Shown: positions 5,782 through 36,529 of the stretch, piece by piece | How positions within the stretch are numbered: the first letter of the stretch is position 1 | How the letters are laid out: each line of letters opens with the position of its first letter | Source of the DNA: Nocardia sp. BSTN01 | Lineage (GTDB): Bacteria > Actinomycetota > Actinomycetes > Mycobacteriales > Mycobacteriaceae | Reading direction: 5' to 3' | Assembly (NCBI RefSeq): GCF_015354405.1 | Contig: NZ_JADKYP010000024.1 | Coordinates: forward strand, 1-64,000 | Length of the DNA: 64,000 nucleotides | Notes under the pieces: model-generated | What the model was told of the DNA's origin: nothing | The model's input: the letters and a program-made list of their open reading frames with translations, nothing else | Database searches by the model: none | Position numbers and translations under genes: made by a program

Positions 5782-6645
5782 TCAGGCGGGCGTGGCCGAG
5801 CGTTCCGCGCCCGCCTGCCAGCCGATCAGATATCCGGCGTGGCGGCGTTCGAGCATCAGGGTCACCGATTCGTCGGAGGCGTTGAGGATGTCGCTGTGTA
5901 ATCGGCGCAATTTGACGCAGGGATCCAGGCCGAGCTCCCGCTGCAGCGAACGGGCGAATTCGTGGTAGGACTCGAGGGCGCGATGGCGACGGCCGGAACG
6001 GCACAGCGCGTACATGTAGTACGCCTGCAGTCGTTCGTGCAGGGGCTGCTCCGCGGTCAGTCGTGCCAGGTCGGGGCAGACTTCCCGGTAGCGGCCCAGC
6101 CGCAGCTGGGCTTCGATGCGCAGTTCGAGGTCGGTCAGCCGCACCTGTTCCAGATGCGACAACTCGGCCGACAAGGGCAGGCCGCATTCGACGTCCAGCA
6201 GCGCCGGACCGGTCCACAGCGCTTCGGCCGCGGTGAACAGATCCACCGCGCGCAGATCGTCACCGGCAGTCAACGCGCACCGGGCGGCATCGGTCATCGT
6301 GCGGTAGTCGCGCACATCGAGTACGCAGTCCTGGGCGTCGAACATATAACCCTTGCTCCAGGTGCGGAGATATCTGTCCGCGATTTCGCCCTGATCGACC
6401 TCCAGATAGTGCGCCATCTTCTTTCGTATTCCCAGGACATAGGTCTGCACGACCGTGATCGCGCTGCGAGGCGGATCGTCGTTCCACAGCTCTTCGATGA
6501 GTGTCGTGACCGGAACCACCGTCGAATGCCGAATCAACAACAATGCCAGCAATTGCCGTTGTTTCTGGGCGGTCGGCGTCGCATTGCGATTGTCGAGGGC
6601 GAGGGTCAAAGGGCCCAGAACGCGGGCGTACACAGGATTCGACAC
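5782..6645 (-). CDS. SARP-family transcriptional activator
   Basis: This 287-residue protein has an OmpR-type winged-helix DNA-binding domain (about residues 10-95) followed by a bacterial transcriptional activation domain (about 100-250), the small SARP architecture. Such proteins bind direct repeats near promoters and switch on antibiotic operons. It lies convergent to the carboxylase genes with only ten bases between stops. It is probably the pathway-specific activator of the PKS cluster, inferred from family and position. No extra ATPase or TPR domain is present. Confidence 0.9.
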   Translation of the reverse strand: MSNPVYARVLGPLTLALDNRNATPTAQKQRQLLALLLIRHSTVVPVTTLIEELWNDDPPRSAITVVQTYVLGIRKKMAHYLEVDQGEIADRYLRTWSKGYMFDAQDCVLDVRDYRTMTDAARCALTAGDDLRAVDLFTAAEALWTGPALLDVECGLPLSAELSHLEQVRLTDLELRIEAQLRLGRYREVCPDLARLTAEQPLHERLQAYYMYALCRSGRRHRALESYHEFARSLQRELGLDPCVKLRRLHSDILNASDESVTLMLERRHAGYLIGWQAGAERSATPA

Positions 6646-6899
6646 GTAGCGTCCCCTTGTAGCATGAATTGCTGTGCGGTGAGCGTGAATTCGTACGTCG
6701 CTGTAGTCCGTTTCAGAGTACCGAGGGCATTGTGGCGTGACCGTAAACCCACTGTGATCATACCGTTAACGCCGTACGGCCGTCTTGTTCTCACATATGT
6801 TTTCGCAGGTGAAGAATAATTTGGACGCTCGACTAGGTGATTGTGCGGCCGACCCCTCGCCGGAACCGGTTGCCGCCGAGCGCAATCCGGGCGGTACGG

Positions 6900-7603
6900 C
6901 GGACCGCCGGTGCCGTCAGGCTCCGGCGAGGGGCACGGCGAGGTGTGCGGCGACGGCGGCGCGGCGGCGGCCGGATAGTCGGTGGTGCCCTCGAAATAGT
7001 GACCGGTCCAGCTGGTGGCGAGTTGCTGCAGAGCTGCCATGTTCCCCAGTTTTGGTGTCCCGCACAGCAATTCGCCCAGCGGATCGCTCGAGGGCCCTTC
7101 GTCGTCGGTGTGTTCGCCGGTGGTGAGGCGCACGTCGAGGAAGCGGCGATGGAGATGTGCCCGCAGGACGGCGGTTCCGCTGCCGAAGTTGTTGCACAGC
7201 GCGGGTGGACCGGAGACGGTGAGGACGGGACGGTCGGTGGCGGCGAGGTCGGCGAGTGCGACACCGGTGTTGTCGCCGAGGTTCTGCAGGGTGCAGCCGT
7301 CGAGGTTCAGGAACGGCAGGCTGGGGATAAGACGAGATATCCTGCGGCCGACAGTGTTTCGGCGAGTGTGGCGACGTTGCCCTCCGCGCGGGCGAAGCCG
7401 TGTTGCAGCCGGACCAAGCCGCGCGGCGTGCCCGCGGGCCGATACCACGCGGCGTCCTGATGCAGGGTCGTCGCCGCGCAGGGCAGATCCACCGTGCCCG
7501 GCAGCGGCGGGCCCGCGGCGACGGGAGCGACTGCGGCAGCCGCGACACACGCGGCGGCGAGGACGGTCGGAATCGAAAGCTCGCAGCCTCGTCGCAACTC
7601 CAC
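6900..7603 (-). pseudogene. Decayed secreted alpha/beta-hydrolase
   Basis: Starting from a GTG at 7603, the reading frame gives a signal-peptide-like segment and a hydrolase N-terminus (LVRLQHGF, then AGYLVLSP). The frame then ends in a stop near 7307-7330. The adjacent minus frame continues the same kind of protein (SLPFLNLDGCTLQNLGDNTG), implying a one-base frameshift near 7330. Soon after, it jumps to a C-terminal part (PALCNNFGSGT, LRLTTGEHTD) with no G-x-S-x-G motif between, so the catalytic centre appears deleted. The downstream limit is approximate. A sequencing error could explain the frameshift but not the missing core. Confidence 0.6.
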
Positions 7604-8115
7604 AAGCACCCTCGCTGTCCCGGTGATGACGCCACCGGGACACCGATCAGTATTCGCCACCGAGACGCGTGGCGGAGGCGCTTCGGGCCGTTACCTGTCG
7701 GCGGGCGTGACGCGCCAGGTCTGCGGCAGTGGCACCGGTCGGAAAACCGCTGGCGGCCAAGGGGTTCGCAGCGTGACGGCGATAGATATGTGGTGCGGGT
7801 ATCCCTTGTCGCAAACTCGCCAAGTGGCAGACTCCTACTGGGTTGTCGTAAGGAATAGCGATATCGTCAACCTCAGGCCCGCCGGTAGCTGGGCGATCAC
7901 CGGCGTGGTGACATGTTGCCCAGACTTTCCAGCGGTGACGCGCCTGCGCTGGGTATTCGCCCCCGGAGGCTGACCCTGTGATCGGCGGCTGCTCGACCGG
8001 ATCCGACGGTGCCACAAGCCCGATTCGGTCGCCGGGCGTGTGCGGCCAGGGCGCCGCCGGCTCGTGATCGGCCCGCGCGAGCTTGATCGAATCGAAGTTC
8101 AAGCCCGCCCCGCGG
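7604..8115. other. Long intergenic stretch, no gene seen
   Basis: About 500 bases between the decayed hydrolase and the stress-protein promoter. Open frames here have no recognisable domain, no good ribosome-binding site and irregular codon use. I see no RNA gene or repeat in it. Confidence 0.5.
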
Positions 8116-8140
8116 GTTTCGCTGAAAGATTGCCGGGTAC
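8116..8140 (+). promoter_or_regulatory. SigB/SigF-like promoter
   Basis: GTTT (8116-8119), a 15-base spacer, and GGGTAC (8135-8140) match the consensus used by actinobacterial general-stress sigma factors of the SigB/SigF type. It lies about 105 bases upstream of the PRC-barrel gene on the same strand. Stress control is inferred from the motif. Confidence 0.55.
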
Positions 8141-8245
8141 CTGCCGACGTGTAGCCGAACATGCTGGGCTGCCGGGGGCGACAGCCGGTCACACCGGCGT
8201 ATCCCCGATGAATCCATCCCATCCGTACCGAGGAGGAGAGCAACC

Positions 8246-9055
8246 ATGACCGGACAGCTCGACACTCTGATGGACAGCACCGTGTACGACTCGCACGACG
8301 ACAAGATCGGCAAGGTCAAGAACATCTACGTCAACAACGAAACCGGTTCGCCGACCTGGGCATCGGTGTCCACGGGACTGTTCCGCCACGATTCGCTGGT
8401 GCCGCTGGTCGGGGCGCAGCACAATCCGCAGTCCGACGCGCTGCGGGTGAATGTGGACAAGGAAATGGTCAAATCCGCGCCCGCCGTCGAACAGGACGGG
8501 CACATCAGCCGGGAGGGCGAGGAACAGCTGTTCCGCCACTATCACGTCGACCCGAACCATTCCGGCTGGGACGCCTACGGCCGTGCGATGCGCGACGGGC
8601 AGGGGACCGCGCGACCCGATGCCGCCCCGACTGGACGCCACGCCGCCACCGATCCCACCGGCGACCAGGGCCTGATCCGTTCCGAGGAACGCTTGAACGT
8701 CGATACGCGGCGTGAGGAGGTAGGCACCGCGCGCCTGCGCAAGTACGTCGTGACCGAGGATCAGACCGTGACGGTGCCCACCAGCCACGAAGAGGTCCGT
8801 GTGGAACGCGAACCGGTCACCGACGCCGGCGCGTACGGCCGGACCTCTCTGGGCGACGAGGAACAGGAAGTCACCCTGCACCGTGACCGGGTGACCGTGG
8901 ACAAGGAGACGGTGCCGGTCGAGCGGGTGCGCCTGGCTGTCGACGACGTCGAGGAACAGGAGACCGTCGGCGACACCGTGCGCAAGGAGCGCATCGACAC
9001 CGAGGGCACCGATCCGGGACGCTACGACGATCGCCGCTACCCGGACGAACGCTGA
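8246..9055 (+). CDS. PRC-barrel and DUF2382 domain protein
   Basis: This 269-residue acidic, soluble protein has an N-terminal PRC-barrel (about residues 8-85) and a C-terminal DUF2382 domain (about 150-265), the latter containing repeated charged segments such as EEVRVEREPV. Both domains are common in actinobacterial and cyanobacterial stress proteins of unknown biochemical role. The ATG is preceded by AGGAGGAGAG. It stands alone, behind a SigB/SigF-like promoter, which fits a general stress response. Confidence 0.88.
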   Translation: MTGQLDTLMDSTVYDSHDDKIGKVKNIYVNNETGSPTWASVSTGLFRHDSLVPLVGAQHNPQSDALRVNVDKEMVKSAPAVEQDGHISREGEEQLFRHYHVDPNHSGWDAYGRAMRDGQGTARPDAAPTGRHAATDPTGDQGLIRSEERLNVDTRREEVGTARLRKYVVTEDQTVTVPTSHEEVRVEREPVTDAGAYGRTSLGDEEQEVTLHRDRVTVDKETVPVERVRLAVDDVEEQETVGDTVRKERIDTEGTDPGRYDDRRYPDER

Positions 9056-30958: not shown

Positions 30959-31006
30959 CGTCAACTAATAGTTGACGCGTGCACGATCGTCAACCTATGT
31001 TTGACG
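30959..31006 (+). promoter_or_regulatory. Tandem 19-bp palindromic operators over a promoter
   Basis: CGTCAACTA-A-TAGTTGACG (30959-30977) is a perfect 9+1+9 palindrome. A degenerate copy of the same size (CGTCAACCT-A-TGTTTGACG) lies at 30988-31006, 29 bases downstream. The right arm of the first forms a -35-like TTGACG (30972-30977), and TATGTT (30996-31001) could be the -10, so a bound dimer would block RNA polymerase. Confidence 0.7.
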
Positions 31007-31036
31007 AGCCGATCGCGGCGGACAGGAGGAACCAAG

Positions 31037-31381
31037 ATGCCGGATGCGCCCATCGTCACCGGCGCTGCGGCCAGCCGTGGTGTTGTCGCCGGTCCGGTTC
31101 GGCTGGTGCACAGTGTCGACGACTTCGACGCGGTTCGGCCGGGCGATGTGATCGTCTGTCGCACGACCGATCCGTCGTGGACAGCGCTTTTCGGTGTCGC
31201 CGCCGCGGTGGTGACCGAAACCGGGGGAATACTGTCCCATGCGGCAATCGTCGCCCGCGAGTTCGGGATTCCAGCCGTGGTGGCGGCCGAGGGGGCGATG
31301 CAGACCCTGGCGAATCATCGGATCATCTCGGTCGATGGAACCAAGGGACACGTTCATGCCGTTTGCTCGCCCCGCCGTTGA
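31037..31381 (+). CDS. Stand-alone PEP-utilising enzyme mobile (phosphohistidine) domain
   Basis: This 114-residue protein consists only of the swivelling phosphohistidine domain of PEP synthase and pyruvate phosphate dikinase, with the motif TETGGILSHAAIVAREFGIPAVV around H68. There are no nucleotide- or PEP-binding domains here, so it must act with another protein or in a different role. The ATG follows CAGGAGGA. The next gene, a predicted winged-helix protein, starts 46 bases downstream; both are behind the tandem palindromes. Confidence 0.85.
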   Translation: MPDAPIVTGAAASRGVVAGPVRLVHSVDDFDAVRPGDVIVCRTTDPSWTALFGVAAAVVTETGGILSHAAIVAREFGIPAVVAAEGAMQTLANHRIISVDGTKGHVHAVCSPRR

Positions 31382-32158: not shown

Positions 32159-32275
32159 CTACGCCGGTCGCTGGAACTTCCCGTCCTGTAGGCCGGTGGT
32201 GAAGGAGTCCCGTTCGGCGGGGGAGAAGATGAGTGCTGGGCCGGTGGAGTTTTTGGAGTCGTGCACTCCAACAGC
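32159..32275 (-). pseudogene. C-terminal half of an interrupted DUF397 gene
   Basis: The minus strand encodes AVGVHDSKNSTGPALIF followed by SPAERDSFTTGLQDGKF and a stop, a clear DUF397 C-terminus. The N-terminal half is missing here; it matches the fragment at 35008-35084, 2.7 kb away. The reading frame would join exactly after the HLSDGE of that fragment. The boundary of element and gene is at about 32276-32278. Confidence 0.75.
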
Positions 32276-32365
32276 TTCTCTGCACCAGCGTCGGCGACAC
32301 GCTGAGGTCGCCGAAATTCGGAGGATTATCCTGGGCGGATCTGCTTCGGTGTCGAGGTGATCAAG

Positions 32366-32998
32366 ATGCAGGCCGTCATCGAGGTTCCGGCCTTCGATAC
32401 CGTGTCGCCGCTGCCATGGCTCGTCACGTCGGTAGCCGCGGGGTCGTGGTTGGCACTCGACGCTGGCTGTAGTGATGAGGAAGTTGGGCTGTTTGTAGGC
32501 GCTTTGGCTCATCGCCTGGACGTCGAGTCTCCGGGTGGGCGCGATGAGGTCGTGGCCACACTGCTCGCTGAGGAGATCCTCATCGTGGCTGGTGGTCTGC
32601 GATTGCTCGATACGGTCACCGGGATGGTGGTGGTGCCAGGCTGCTGTGCCGGACTCGAGGATTGGCGCGATTGGGGGCAGGTGCTCACAGGGGGTTCGCC
32701 GTGGCTGGGCCATGACCCGGGCCCGGAGGTCGAGATCGGCGTCGACGGTGGTCTGCGCGTGTGGCAGGACGGCGGCCCGAACCGTCACCACGGCCAGTGG
32801 GCGGGGACAAGCGTCGTGCTGCCCCGGCTCGTGCTGGCCGGCCTGCTGAGGAACGTGCGGGAGGACTTGGTCGGCTTCCTGGCTCTGGTGGAGGCGTGGA
32901 CGGCGCGCAACGGGTTGGGCGAGAACGGAACCGCTCTTGTGGAGGCGATCGACCGGAACTTCACCATTACGGCTCCGTTGGATCTGCCAAGCGATTGA
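32366..32998 (+). CDS. Hypothetical protein inside the element (cargo)
   Basis: This 210-residue soluble, acidic protein has coding-like composition throughout, and its ATG follows GAGGTGAT. It contains SWLALDAGCSDEEVG, VAGGLRLLDTVTGMVVVPGCC and ENGTALVEAIDRNFTI. I do not recognise a domain. It is on the strand opposite the recombinases and lies next to the left end of the element, the usual place for passenger genes. It could be a DUF397-like partner or a defence gene, but nothing in the sequence decides this. Confidence 0.6.
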   Translation: MQAVIEVPAFDTVSPLPWLVTSVAAGSWLALDAGCSDEEVGLFVGALAHRLDVESPGGRDEVVATLLAEEILIVAGGLRLLDTVTGMVVVPGCCAGLEDWRDWGQVLTGGSPWLGHDPGPEVEIGVDGGLRVWQDGGPNRHHGQWAGTSVVLPRLVLAGLLRNVREDLVGFLALVEAWTARNGLGENGTALVEAIDRNFTITAPLDLPSD

Positions 32999-33103
32999 AC
33001 AGCGGTAGGTTTCGGCCCGGACGGCTATTCGGTCGAGGATCTGTGTGGTGACCTGGACCTGTTCATGTTCGTGCTCAGGGGCAACGGCGGCGGTGGTGTT
33101 CAT
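32987..33103 (-). other. Possible gene fragment after the recombinase remnant
   Basis: The minus strand has TAATG at the recombinase stop, and the ATG (33103) opens a coding-like stretch of about 39 residues (MNTTAAVAPEHEHEQVQVTT and RIAVRAETYRCSIAW). After that, the frame becomes antisense to the cargo gene and loses coding character. It may be the start of a third gene of the element, cut by rearrangement. Support is weak. Confidence 0.3.
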
Positions 33104-33749
33104 TAGAGGACAGGGCCGCCTCCCGGGTCTCGGTCGTAGTGCAGGAATGCTTCCGGAGTGAGGTCGGCGAACGCGATGCCCTGGGTGGTCAGCGCGCACG
33201 CGACATCGAACAGGGCCCGGCGCTTGAAGTGCTTGGTCGAATCAGCCGACTCGATCGCGGTGAAGAACCGATCGAGCGGGGGTCGTTGTGCGCTTGGCGA
33301 AAGGCTCCCGCGTAGTCGCGAAACATGGTGGACCGGAACGCTTCCAGCGTCGGCCGGATGATCCGCAGCGCGAAGAATGCTTCCAATGCCTGTGTCGGTG
33401 CGGTCCCGATGTGGGATGAGCTGCCCAGGGCCCGAACCGGATTGCCCCGCAAGTGGAGTCCACTGGCGTCCGAGCGTTCCTGCCAGGTGGCGCCGGGCAA
33501 CTGGGCCAAGTGCTCGCCCAGCTGCTGAAGACCGCGGTCTCGGCTGTGTCTGCGGCTTCGGGGCTCGGGCCAGACGTCGGCCGCGACGGTTCGAATGAGG
33601 TCGATCGGTGCGGCATCGAGCGTCCCGTGCGGGCGCGGCGGAACCGCTGGTGGCGGTGCCGGAGCGGCGATCACGGCCTGGCGCACGAATTTCGTCGGCG
33701 GGACCTCCCGCCGGACGGCTTGCCTGCGACGTCTCAGAGTGTCAGGCAC
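33099..33749 (-). pseudogene. Truncated, frameshifted second tyrosine recombinase
   Basis: The gene begins with GTG 33749, overlapping the first recombinase by 8 bp. It gives the N-terminus of a large integrase-family protein (LIRTVAADVWPEP, then ATWQERSDASGL and SSSHIGT). A frameshift occurs at a run of five Gs (33278-33282). The neighbouring frame resumes with PLDRFFTAIESADSTKHFKRRALF and ADLTPEAFLHY before stopping at 33099. Family members are several hundred residues longer and contain the catalytic domain, which is absent here. Confidence 0.7.
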
Positions 33750-34881
33750 CGAACACCGCCTCGATGTCCTCGGCCGCGTAGCCGGGGGCGAACCGGCGTT
33801 CCTCCCGAGGTCGGGCGAAGTGTTCGGCCAGCTTGTCGTGCAGTTCCTCGATACGCGGCTGCAAGTAGATCTCGGTGGTCGACAGGTGTTTGTGCCGCAG
33901 AACGGCCTGAACTTCCGGCAGCGTCAGCGCCGGATCGGCAGCCATGCGCGCGGCCGCGGTGTGGCGCAGATCGTGTAGCGACCAGTTCGTGCCCAGCACA
34001 TGGTTCGCGCGCTGCAGGACACATCGCATCGCCCAGTACGTCAGCTGCCGCGGCTCGCCCCGCAACGTGCGCCAGACCGGCTCCCTCGCCGCAGGGGTTC
34101 CGTGCTCGTCGAAATACATGGCAAGGTGGCAGAACGCCTCCGGTGACCCCGGAACCGCCATCAACGCGCGAGACCCCTTGGACACCAGCCCGATTCGCTT
34201 ACCCGACCAATCGACCTGCTCGCCCAGAAGTCCGAGCAGCTCCGAGGCGCGCGCACCGGAGGAGACGTAGAACGCCAGCAATGCCCGATCCCGGTGGCTG
34301 CCCATCTCAGCGAACAGCTCGTCCCACAACCTGTCCGGAATCGACCGCGGGGCCCGACTGCCTTGCTTCTGCCGCAGCGGAGCTCGTCCGTGCTGCGGTT
34401 GAACGTCGATCGGGCTGCGGTGACCGAGCAGGCGCCTCCGCTCGGAGGCGAGAGGAACCGGGTTGACCGCCGGGCCACGACCGAAATGCAGGTGGAAATC
34501 GTAGAACCCCGACAACACCGACAACGCATGGTTGATCGTCGATGCGGCGTAACCGGCCTCGAGCGAGGGTTTGCCGGTCCGCAGGTTCACCGAGCCCGGC
34601 GGCATTGCACTCGAAGCCGACCGGGCCCGCTGCGGATTGCGCGCTGTGCGCAGCCATCCGACCAGCAACTCGACCTCACCGCGGCCGGCACGGTCCCATG
34701 CCACGTCGACCACCACGAGCAACCGCCACCAACGCAGTAGGTCGTGCGCGTACGATCGCACCGTCAACGGGCTCGCGTCGGTCAGCAACAGGTCCCGCAA
34801 AAACGTTGTGAACGGCTCGATTTCAACACCGTTTCCGTCGATCACGACATACGCGACGACGCCCGGACCGGACCGCTGCAC
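33742..34881 (-). CDS. Tyrosine recombinase, Tn554 TnpA-like
   Basis: This 379-residue protein has an N-terminal SAM-like core-binding domain (about 20-135) and a complete catalytic domain: R211 in SSGARASELL, K235, H303-x-x-R306 in HDLRHTAA, H330 and the nucleophile Y339 in TTEIYLQ. It should therefore be active in strand exchange. It is the first gene of the element, and its stop overlaps the start of the truncated second recombinase. Members act in pairs or trios, so it may now be unable to move alone. The start is GTG, with a weak ribosome-binding site. Confidence 0.88.
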   Translation of the reverse strand: MQRSGPGVVAYVVIDGNGVEIEPFTTFLRDLLLTDASPLTVRSYAHDLLRWWRLLVVVDVAWDRAGRGEVELLVGWLRTARNPQRARSASSAMPPGSVNLRTGKPSLEAGYAASTINHALSVLSGFYDFHLHFGRGPAVNPVPLASERRRLLGHRSPIDVQPQHGRAPLRQKQGSRAPRSIPDRLWDELFAEMGSHRDRALLAFYVSSGARASELLGLLGEQVDWSGKRIGLVSKGSRALMAVPGSPEAFCHLAMYFDEHGTPAAREPVWRTLRGEPRQLTYWAMRCVLQRANHVLGTNWSLHDLRHTAAARMAADPALTLPEVQAVLRHKHLSTTEIYLQPRIEELHDKLAEHFARPREERRFAPGYAAEDIEAVFGA

Positions 34882-35007
34882 GACCGCACCGGCGCGCGGA
34901 ATCTCAGCTCAGCCCTCGAAGATCCGCTGACGCAACGCGTCTACCAACAACATCACCACCATCACTCGGTGCCCCATGCGCGGGGCGTGTGATGGTGCAG
35001 TTAACGG

Positions 35008-35084
35008 TTCGCCATCGCTGAGGTGCGCAACCTCAACGCATGTATCTTTGCCGTGGCTTCGCTGGCTCGTGTACCACCGGGCAG
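35008..35084 (-). pseudogene. N-terminal half of the interrupted DUF397 gene
   Basis: The minus strand encodes VDLFTARWYTSQRSHGKD and then CVEVAHLSDGE, aligning with residues 3-30 of the two intact DUF397 proteins next to it. Compared with those copies the ATG has become AGG, and no other good start is in frame. After HLSDGE the sequence turns into non-homologous element DNA. Its missing half is at 32159-32275. Downstream limits are set by that alignment. Confidence 0.7.
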
Positions 35085-35362
35085 TGAACAGGTCGACGTT
35101 CCTGTCGTCTACTCCTCTGGCTCCGGATTGCTGGCCCCGGCCACTCCGGCTGCTGTGCGGGGGCTTCGAATCGGCCGTCCTGTACGACAGTGGTGAAAGC
35201 ATCCCATTCTGCGGGCGTGAAGACTAGTGCTGGGCCGGTGGGGTTTTTGGAGTCGCGAACTCCGACCGCGCCGGTGGTGAGGTGTGCTACCTCCACGTAG
35301 TCCCCGGTGGCGTGGCTCCGGCTGCTCTTGAACCACTTGGCAGTGGGTAGGTCAACACTCAT
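35033..35362 (-). CDS. DUF397 protein, second copy
   Basis: The first 68 residues (AKWFKSSRSHATGDYVEVAH, then RDSKNPTGPALVFTPAEWDAF) are a complete DUF397 domain. The remaining 40 residues run out of frame through the broken third copy, so the tail is probably the result of a lost stop codon. It overlaps the first copy by 11 bp. DUF397 proteins are small partners of the neighbouring XRE regulator type and modulate its activity. Confidence 0.8.
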   Translation of the reverse strand: MSVDLPTAKWFKSSRSHATGDYVEVAHLTTGAVGVRDSKNPTGPALVFTPAEWDAFTTVVQDGRFEAPAQQPEWPGPAIRSQRSRRQERRPVHCPVVHEPAKPRQRYMR

Positions 35363-35627
35363 GCTGCGTTCTCCTCTGGCTCCGGTTCGCTGGCGCTTGG
35401 CGCTTGGATCGCTGTGCGTATGCGGAGGCTTTGAATCGGCCGTTCTGAATGCCGGTGGTGAAGGCGTCCCATTCGGCGGGGGTGAAGGTGAGAGCCGGGC
35501 CGGTGGGGTTTTTGGAGTCGCGAACTCCGACCGCGCCGTTGGTGAGGTGCGCTACCTCGACGCACTCTCCGCCGTCCCGGCTTCGGCTGCTCTTGAACCA
35601 CTTCGCGGCTGACGTTTCGGTACTCAC
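35352..35627 (-). CDS. DUF397 protein, first copy
   Basis: This 91-residue protein is a typical DUF397 member with AKWFKSSRSRDGGECVEVAH and SKNPTGPALTFTPAEWDAF. Its ATG overlaps the stop of the XRE regulator gene by 4 bp, the standard arrangement of the actinobacterial HTH/DUF397 pair. Such small proteins probably act as antagonists or co-regulators of the XRE protein, as in the BldB/WhiJ-like systems of Streptomyces. Confidence 0.88.
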   Translation of the reverse strand: MSTETSAAKWFKSSRSRDGGECVEVAHLTNGAVGVRDSKNPTGPALTFTPAEWDAFTTGIQNGRFKASAYAQRSKRQAPANRSQRRTQHEC

Positions 35628-36529
35628 GCTCTGTACTCCTGTTCGATCTTCTCCAGCAGAGCCCTTGACTCCGCTTCGTTCAGCGCCACAGCGGCGATGT
35701 CGGACAGCGCCTGTCGGTACACCTCGATCTCAGTTGGCTTGTCCAGGTACAAGGTTCCGGCGTAGCCCTCGATGTATACCACCGGAGGTTGTGTCAGCGC
35801 CGGGTTCAAGTGTTGCGGAAATTCGAACAACACGAACGAGTCGGTTTCCAGTCCGATATGACCGTCACTGGTGAACGGTATGACGCGAATCGACATATTC
35901 GCCAGCAGGCTCAGTTCATGGAGATGGCGGATTTGGTCGGCCATTACTGCGTTGCCCCCGATCCGATATCGTAGCGCTGCCTCGCCCAGTAAGACTTGCA
36001 TGGTCAGCGGGTTACTCGAATCAGCAAGGCGTGCTTGTCGTTTGGAAAGTAGCTCGAAACTTCTCTGCTCGTTGTATTGAATGTGTTGATCGACAAGGCG
36101 GGATCTGCGCAATTCTGGCTTGTAGTACCGGGCTTTTGCCCGGCGGTAGTCGGCCGTCTGAGTGAGTCCGGGCAATAGTGTCAGTTGAAAGGAATCGACG
36201 CGAGTTGCAGCCTGTTCCAGGCTGAGGAACAGATCGGCGTACACAATCGCGTCGCTGTAGGACTGCCACCACTCCTCTTTGCGGCACTCGTCCGCAAGCC
36301 ACAAAAGCCCATTCTGATCCTCTTCGTTGACCTCGTACACGCGGCACAGTGCTCGGATGATCGGCCTCTTCACTTCCGAAGTCCGCCCGTTCTCCAAGCG
36401 CCACAAGGTTTGTCGGCCGATCTCGGCGAGTTTCGCCGCCTCGTCGCTCTTGAGGTTTGCGGCCTCACGCAACTCGATCAACCGTCGGCCCAGCAGCCTG
36501 CGTGGAAGTGTCGTCGATTCGATCTGCAT
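35624..36529 (-). CDS. XRE-family regulator with DUF5753 domain
   Basis: This 301-residue protein has an N-terminal helix-turn-helix (about 13-67; LKSDEAAKLAEIGRQTLWRLENG) and a C-terminal DUF5753 domain (about 100-285; YADLFLSLEQAATRVDSFQ, PGLTQTADYRRA). This architecture is typical of the regulator member of HTH/DUF397 pairs in developmental or defence-linked control in actinobacteria. It heads a minus-strand cassette with three DUF397 copies, one of them destroyed by the mobile element. Confidence 0.92.
   Translation of the reverse strand: MQIESTTLPRRLLGRRLIELREAANLKSDEAAKLAEIGRQTLWRLENGRTSEVKRPIIRALCRVYEVNEEDQNGLLWLADECRKEEWWQSYSDAIVYADLFLSLEQAATRVDSFQLTLLPGLTQTADYRRAKARYYKPELRRSRLVDQHIQYNEQRSFELLSKRQARLADSSNPLTMQVLLGEAALRYRIGGNAVMADQIRHLHELSLLANMSIRVIPFTSDGHIGLETDSFVLFEFPQHLNPALTQPPVVYIEGYAGTLYLDKPTEIEVYRQALSDIAAVALNEAESRALLEKIEQEYRA

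Follow-up and report, generated by a model that had tools for sequence, protein, structure and literature searches.

A degraded Tn554-related transposon in a DUF397 gene of Nocardia sp. BSTN01: its ends, its empty sites and a hexamer that appears to be inherited with it

Tn554-type elements are transposons that move by means of tyrosine recombinases. They are poorly understood, above all in the way in which two recombinases of unequal size, with a spacer that is not homologous, bring about an insertion that is directional and free of duplications. Here we describe such an element from Nocardia sp. BSTN01. It lies within the first 64,000 nucleotides of contig NZ_JADKYP010000024.1 (assembly GCF_015354405.1), a stretch that we call the window, where a preliminary description had seen a Tn554-like element with two recombinases inside a DUF397 gene. 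Both the gene content and the empty sites reported below bear this out.

The best described relatives share much with this family. Tn554, Tn6188 and Tn552-II are likewise reported to have two tyrosine recombinases, one ordinary and one large, and to insert into coding sequence; for Tn554, the absence of a target duplication and imperfect inverted terminal repeats are described, and we find both here. The targets differ. There is also a difference in the short sequence between the ends. In Tn552-II, a Tn554-related element with the genes tnpABC, the circles are reported to take mostly the left attachment (att) sequence, which is then seen at the right end of the new copy (PMC12486829). According to the accounts of Tn554, Tn6188 and Tn552-II, an att sequence of 6-7 bp moves from the left flank of the donor to the right end, whereas in the family described here a hexamer, which we call X, seems to stay at the end next to tnpA (the tnpA side, as opposed to the far side) and to be inherited. 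A second group, the strand-biased circularizing integrative elements (SEs), resembles our family in having two catalytic tyrosine recombinases, imperfect inverted ends and a 6-bp spacer; the fingerprint of SEs is described as ending on the other side (PMC10214605). Another mark of SEs is that their circles form without leaving an empty donor site. SEs are reported to carry four conserved genes (intA, tfp, intB and srap) and to have the native hexamer on the intA side, whereas our family has two genes and, by our comparison, a native hexamer on the far side. We found no gene between the two recombinases in those plasmid relatives that have an intact pair; in the others the partner is broken, shortened or missing. 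RIT and GInt elements also have several adjacent tyrosine recombinases, but these are described as three recombinase-fold genes (plus ginD in GInts), whereas the intact relatives of the window's element have two, one of them of about 800 amino acids (aa).

The closest described group are the Tn554-related transposons of actinobacteria, which were defined in 2012 by one long (611-828 aa) and one ordinary tyrosine recombinase (Van Houdt et al., PMC3414803), the same gene pair in the same order as in the window. The Nocardioides plasmid pNOCA01 (NC_008697) carries two recombinases side by side. The shorter one has 45% identity (177/393) with the TnpA of the window, and the longer one has 35% identity (253/729) with the long partner in L029, a relative of the window's element. 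The pNOCA01 record is listed in Table 2 of PMC3414803, to which we matched the pair by record and not by protein number, and has no annotated TnpC, as that paper reports. In the plasmid relatives inspected, the annotation, which is all that we went by, shows no tnpC next to tnpB either; several neighbours there are labelled "hypothetical", and the records of L205 and L208 carry no annotation. The window has the ordinary recombinase, and its abnormally long partner is reduced to about 205 residues in two frames. As far as sequence comparison can tell, the element is a degraded member of the actinobacterial Tn554-related transposons. The section of PMC3414803 on these transposons gives no ends, arms or insertion rule, and we were not able to find exact ends, clean insertion or a heritable hexamer for them in the open-access literature searched, as far as its text was available to us. 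The family has been known since 2012; what is new are the exact ends and the heritable hexamer.

The interrupted DUF397 gene and the boundaries of the insert

The DUF397 gene in question is the third and last of three tandem copies on the minus strand and lies in two pieces, interrupted by an insert of 2,735 bp. The pieces are on the same strand and complementary, as had been noted before: the N-terminal part (35011-35202) covers positions 1-25 of the Pfam DUF397 profile with 21.0 bits, below the Pfam cut-off of 24, and the C-terminal half (32159-32275) covers positions 26-54 with 25.7 bits. The open reading frame (ORF) of the upstream piece (34909-35202) continues into the element. The gene is broken.

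An uninterrupted allele, which the preliminary description had suggested looking for, exists in relatives. We aligned each flank separately to the same locus in seven Nocardia genomes and found that positions 32275 and 35011 of the window project to adjacent bases in seven uninterrupted DUF397 copies from six of these genomes (G083, G076, G014 with two copies, G084, G086 and G092); in the seventh, G040, the left flank alone could be aligned. For example, the two flank alignments to G083 are gapless over 117 and 115 positions, with 89% and 85% identity. Note that outside G083 the identity of the right flank is lower (70-77%), its alignments have gaps at some distance from the junction, and some projections reach up to 14 bases past the end of the alignment. 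Because 32275 and 35011 are adjacent in the uninterrupted copies, the insert, as judged from these alignments, is 32276-35010, with no target base duplicated or lost.

The preliminary description had taken GAA (TTC on the other strand), which is indeed present at both junctions, for a shared target, and had proposed that the two halves can be rejoined exactly. The uninterrupted copies have neither GAA and no extra codon at this place. The far GAA is the end of the far arm, GTGCAGAGAA, and the other is the start of the hexamer GAACCG that lies outside the tnpA-side arm, TTAACTGCAC; by this comparison both triplets belong to the insert, and the idea of a shared target had to be given up. As for the rejoining, the halves do come from one gene and their flanks are adjacent, but the joined sequence is one codon too long: HLSDG-E-AVGV has one residue more than the intact neighbours, HLTNG-AVGV and HLTTG-AVGV.

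Ends, hexamers and targets in the family

Upstream of tnpA, the relatives have GTTRACTGCAC in common and diverge beyond it, and at the far downstream end they share RGTGCAGAGAAG. In the window, the tnpA-side arm (consensus TTRACTGCAC) is found at 34995-35004 on the minus strand and the far arm at 32276-32285, also on the minus strand (TTCTCTGCAC on the plus strand). The two are imperfect inverted repeats, since GTGCAGAGAA resembles GTGCAGTYAA, the reverse complement of TTRACTGCAC. The CTGCACC that had been noticed in inverted orientation near both ends is real and is part of these arms.

To what extent the ends recur depends on the distance of the relatives. Among 14 elements with a TnpA at least 53% identical to that of the window, the window included, the tnpA-side motif is present in 13 (the exception is L072); the far motif is present in 8. 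A second set of 18 loci, taken from related genomes and from plasmids, has the tnpA-side arm 16 times and the far arm 11 times, twice as the variant GTGCAGTCAA; in 13 Streptomyces plasmid records, five of which are also among the 18, the numbers are 13 and 8. The same ends thus occur in relatives from Nocardia, from other actinobacteria and from Streptomyces plasmids. In 24 more distant relatives, which served as a negative set only, there is no tnpA-side motif and a single partial far motif. The question raised earlier, whether other copies end elsewhere, therefore has a divided answer: close relatives end at the same motifs, the distant ones lack the tnpA-side motif. The survey left out the partial loci L019 and L020 (TnpA 55-60% identical) and, as duplicates, L032 (identical to L072) and L034 (96% identical to L033 over 5.8 kb).

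Natural empty sites could be found for five pairs of element and target, that of the window included, and the insertion was clean wherever both flanks aligned at the junction. Of the loci examined, we counted those in which the alignment of the tnpA-side flank came within 6 bases of the junction and that of the far flank started no more than 11 bases from it. This applies to 4 of 11 loci for L074, 3 of 14 for L073 and 9 of 13 for L077, with one locus (L108) serving both L073 and L074; the remaining loci lack one flank there. Without exception, the last host base before X is adjacent, in the counted loci, to the first base after the far arm. With the 700-bp tnpA-side flanks of three other Nocardia elements, the matches stopped 3 to 7 bases before the arm. 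At the Streptomyces plasmid site, all eight empty alleles that were fetched agree (taken from 50 listed of the 72 plasmid records with the target stretch, filled or empty), the best being L210, which is 99.2% identical on one side and 100% on the other. Because both flanks project to adjacent bases without X in the empty loci, we conclude from the alignments that the hexamer X next to the tnpA-side arm is not host DNA. In the window, X is GAACCG, the outermost base pairs on the tnpA side (35005-35010, minus strand), and is absent from the empty sites; on the far side, the empty-site comparison gives GCTGTT (32270-32275, minus strand), part of the DUF397 coding sequence, as the native target hexamer, Y.

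The behaviour of X across copies is the second part of the evidence. X is GGTCTG in all 13 Streptomyces records, which represent at least three distinguishable insertions. Over 1,200 bp, the identity among L195, L201 and L198 is 99.7-99.9%, and all three have this X; L195 and L201 lie in two distinguishable alleles of one gene and L198 at an unrelated site, and their far hexamers are AATCGA, CGTCCA and GGTCTA, respectively. Likewise, L030 and L031 both have GAACTG as X and differ in their flanks. The last letter of X is G in all 22 lineages, as against 2 of 17 native hexamers (Fisher p 5e-9, a guide only, as the lineages are related; the Streptomyces group, with two targets, contributes four of the 17). 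Position 1, on the other hand, is G in 20 of 22 X and in 14 of 17 native hexamers, so that the exact point of exchange is uncertain by one base. These patterns argue for X as a heritable part of the element and for the far hexamer as native to the target.

Relatives with the same ends are inserted in other genes, so that the earlier suggestion of a choice of DUF397 as target does not hold; judged by these sites, DUF397 genes as a class are not the element's target. One of the other targets codes for FFFK^QWGG, presumably a DUF5131-type motif. Another is a small unknown gene that codes for HAWARx^xxGxWxG (the frame was chosen by conservation among the empty loci), and a third is a conserved hypothetical gene of Streptomyces plasmids. 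The 18 filled sites, among which one lineage at one target is represented several times, give a weak consensus: 14 of them have G at native position 1, and little else is conserved at the junction. In their use of conserved coding stretches, these elements are like Tn554 and Tn6188, for which radC is reported as the target (PMC3788773).

Gene content, decay and neighbourhood

Between the DUF397 halves there are, as already described, a complete tyrosine recombinase, a truncated second one and an unknown gene. The first, tnpA (33742-34881, minus strand), codes for 379 aa with the Phage_int_SAM_1 (PF02899) and Phage_integrase (PF00589) domains; R211, K235, H303, R306, H330 and Y339 are its candidate catalytic residues, with roles assigned by motif. 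The tnpB remnant (33118-33749, minus strand, the lower limit being approximate) corresponds to residues 8-213 of an 808-aa relative: of about 806 aa those residues are left, with a frameshift near 33279-33294, and the remainder is gone. In the four intact relatives that we scanned, the gene after tnpA has 740-808 aa and a PF00589 domain at about residues 474-667; counted from the first possible start, the partner ORFs of the relatives have 652-909 aa.

The place of the 3' part of tnpB and of the far-end region of the relatives is occupied by an 814-bp segment (32290-33103, plus strand) that is 85.5% identical to DNA of the Nocardia genome G116. On one side it adjoins the tnpB stump directly, and on the other a far end that measures at most about 14 bp. 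We were not able to find an arm of the element in the 10.5 kb around the matching stretch of G116, and the best TnpA-like match in the whole of that genome has an E value of 7e-8; a transposase gene of the Mutator family of insertion sequences (IS) lies about 350 bp beyond the stretch. The segment carries orf213 (32357-32998, plus strand), an ORF of unknown function that we regard as cargo and that has homologues in 8 of 150 other Nocardia genomes. For orf213, no family was found in Pfam (E<=0.01), NCBIfam or PHROGs (0.1), and its G116 homologue gave a sub-threshold DUF3452 match that we do not trust. In the regions of the homologues in G116 (L220, 2952-3758 and 5802-7049) and G109 (L221, 3898-4515) there are an EspG-family gene and a WXG100 gene, respectively, neighbours that hint at ESX-type loci.

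Because most of tnpB has been lost, the window copy probably cannot move by itself. Other decayed or unusual copies were seen as well. In L072 (9000-12700; Nocardia sp. CY41, the relative from G106) the tnpA-side motif is missing and the long recombinase is in pieces, another decaying copy. G106 is placed in the genus of the window's genome, and its contig matches one of Nocardia sp. CY41 (L032) with 100% identity over 11,122 bases. L031 (3835-8430) and L075 (5404-10000) have tandem tnpA-type genes, one 59-68% and the other 43-46% identical to the TnpA of the window. In the genome of the window itself (G000), contig C175 (23467-27705) has two neighbouring stretches that distantly resemble the two recombinases, at 35% and 30% identity.

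Upstream of the interrupted gene there are two intact DUF397 genes, 35033-35362 and 35352-35627, both found as ORFs with Pfam matches, and an HTH_31 + DUF5753 regulator (35624-36529), assigned by its ORF and domain profiles, which is the upstream partner of the DUF397 genes; all three are on the minus strand. Just beyond the cluster on the other side, the ORF at 31001-31381 presumably resembles a stand-alone mobile domain of PEP-utilising enzymes. XRE-DUF397 pairs are described as regulators of antibiotic production in Streptomyces, and a toxin-antitoxin role is also mentioned as a proposal.

A proposed route of insertion and its alternatives

Our reading, in which we have good though not full confidence, is that a defective actinobacterial Tn554-related transposon sits in the DUF397 gene, that it inserted cleanly, that X is inherited with it and that the exchange probably takes place on the same strand. 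In such a model, TnpA and TnpB would bind the two arms. In the circle, the arms would face each other as GTGCAGAGAA-X-TTRACTGCAC, that is, as 10-bp inverted arms around a 6-bp spacer; inverted arms around a short spacer are the usual layout for tyrosine recombinases. The circle would be closed by a strand exchange at the boundary of far arm and X, and a second exchange, identical in position and strand, would join it to the target. X would therefore stay with the tnpA end and the target hexamer with the far end, and the target would be exactly restored when the element is excised. Compared with Tn552-II and the SEs, the excision step may be alike, whereas we infer a different integration step. 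A more far-reaching version, in which use of the same strand and position in both steps makes the spacer permanent and the moves exactly reversible, and in which a far end that measures at most about 14 bp remains intact when a host gene is fused directly to it, could in our opinion go either way.

Several points weigh against this reading. The circular joint has no match in viral_contigs, and in 151 Nocardia genomes there are two matches with 2 mismatches each, as compared with one for a reversed control pattern. The cut strand follows from the positions of the hexamers only, and the same picture would result from a double-strand exchange if the repair were strongly biased. For L074, two loci (L104 and L109) align up to the tnpA-side junction, with far matches of just 20-23 bp that are out of register. 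The three surveys failed to find the far arm in 6 of 14, 7 of 18 and 5 of 13 loci, for which early contig ends and damaged elements account in some cases, not in all. Moreover, the 13 Streptomyces records are not independent: the same target gene holds 12 of them, L195-L197 share one site, and there is hardly any difference within the pairs L205/L208 and L206/L207. Finally, an occasional exchange is conceivable in L198, whose native hexamer (GGTCTA) and X (GGTCTG) are much alike; no empty site for L198 was found, as the search returned only L198 itself.

It is possible, if rather doubtful, that the 2.7-kb element is not the product of decay after insertion but a mobile non-autonomous derivative that had lost tnpB first and moved here with TnpB supplied in trans. 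Its arms, X and tnpA are intact. Furthermore, on two Streptomyces plasmids (L205 and L208, around 6000-9000) there is a short derivative of 2,878 bp with the same kind of ends in the same target, likely another element without a full tnpB, and the second long recombinase on C175 (35% identity) could be thought of as a helper. On the other hand, there is one copy of the element in the 206-contig assembly and no close copy in the 150 other Nocardia genomes (the best TnpA is 69% identical), and so distant a recombinase would hardly recognise the arms.

We had at first read X as a donor footprint, as in Tn554 and the SEs: a sequence that the circle had taken along from its previous location and that is not part of the element. 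This would agree with what is reported for the SEs and for Tn552-II and other Tn554-related elements, where the new site receives a 6-7 bp spacer that comes from one side of the donor (PMC10214605, PMC12486829), and one common donor would suffice for a shared X in very close copies. We dropped this reading, which we now consider unlikely, because near-identical copies at different sites keep the same hexamer. In addition, X is constant in the 13 Streptomyces records although the elements differ by up to about 10%; GGTCTG is found in none of their native far hexamers (known for 8 of the 13) or of the eight empty alleles; the bias for G at position 6 separates X from the native hexamers; and the foreign hexamer is here on the tnpA side, whereas for SEs and Tn552-II it is the native one that is described on the corresponding intA or left side.

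It is very improbable that there was no insertion and that the DUF397 pieces are remnants of two tandem paralogues joined by a deletion. Two more DUF397 genes do adjoin, so shuffling would be conceivable, and the halves are unequal in similarity: the upstream one is 85% identical to G083 and about 70-77% to the other relatives, the downstream one 76-90% to all seven genomes. However, the profile halves meet exactly at 25/26, the flanks are adjacent in G083 over the gapless alignments given above, and the boundaries are element ends that recur at unrelated sites. A 3-bp target duplication in an original gene with one GAA, suggested by the triplet at both junctions, is ruled out by the seven uninterrupted copies, in which the flanks are adjacent without GAA, while in relatives at unrelated sites the far GAA is kept as the end of GTGCAGAGAA and the other is replaced by GTC, GAC, GCC and others.

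For the window itself, our reading of a defective transposon explains one broken DUF397 gene, which is an ordinary event. The exact ends are of more general use, as they let annotators excise such elements from actinobacterial genomes to the base; together with the rule of which bases belong to the element and which to the target, and with natural pairs of filled and empty sites, they make the mechanism testable in Streptomyces. The insertion rule that our comparison suggests differs from the one reported for Tn554-related and SE elements. If it is true, the spacer of these actinobacterial transposons would be permanent and their moves reversible, unlike those of Tn554 and the SEs, which switch strands and shuttle the hexamer between sites.

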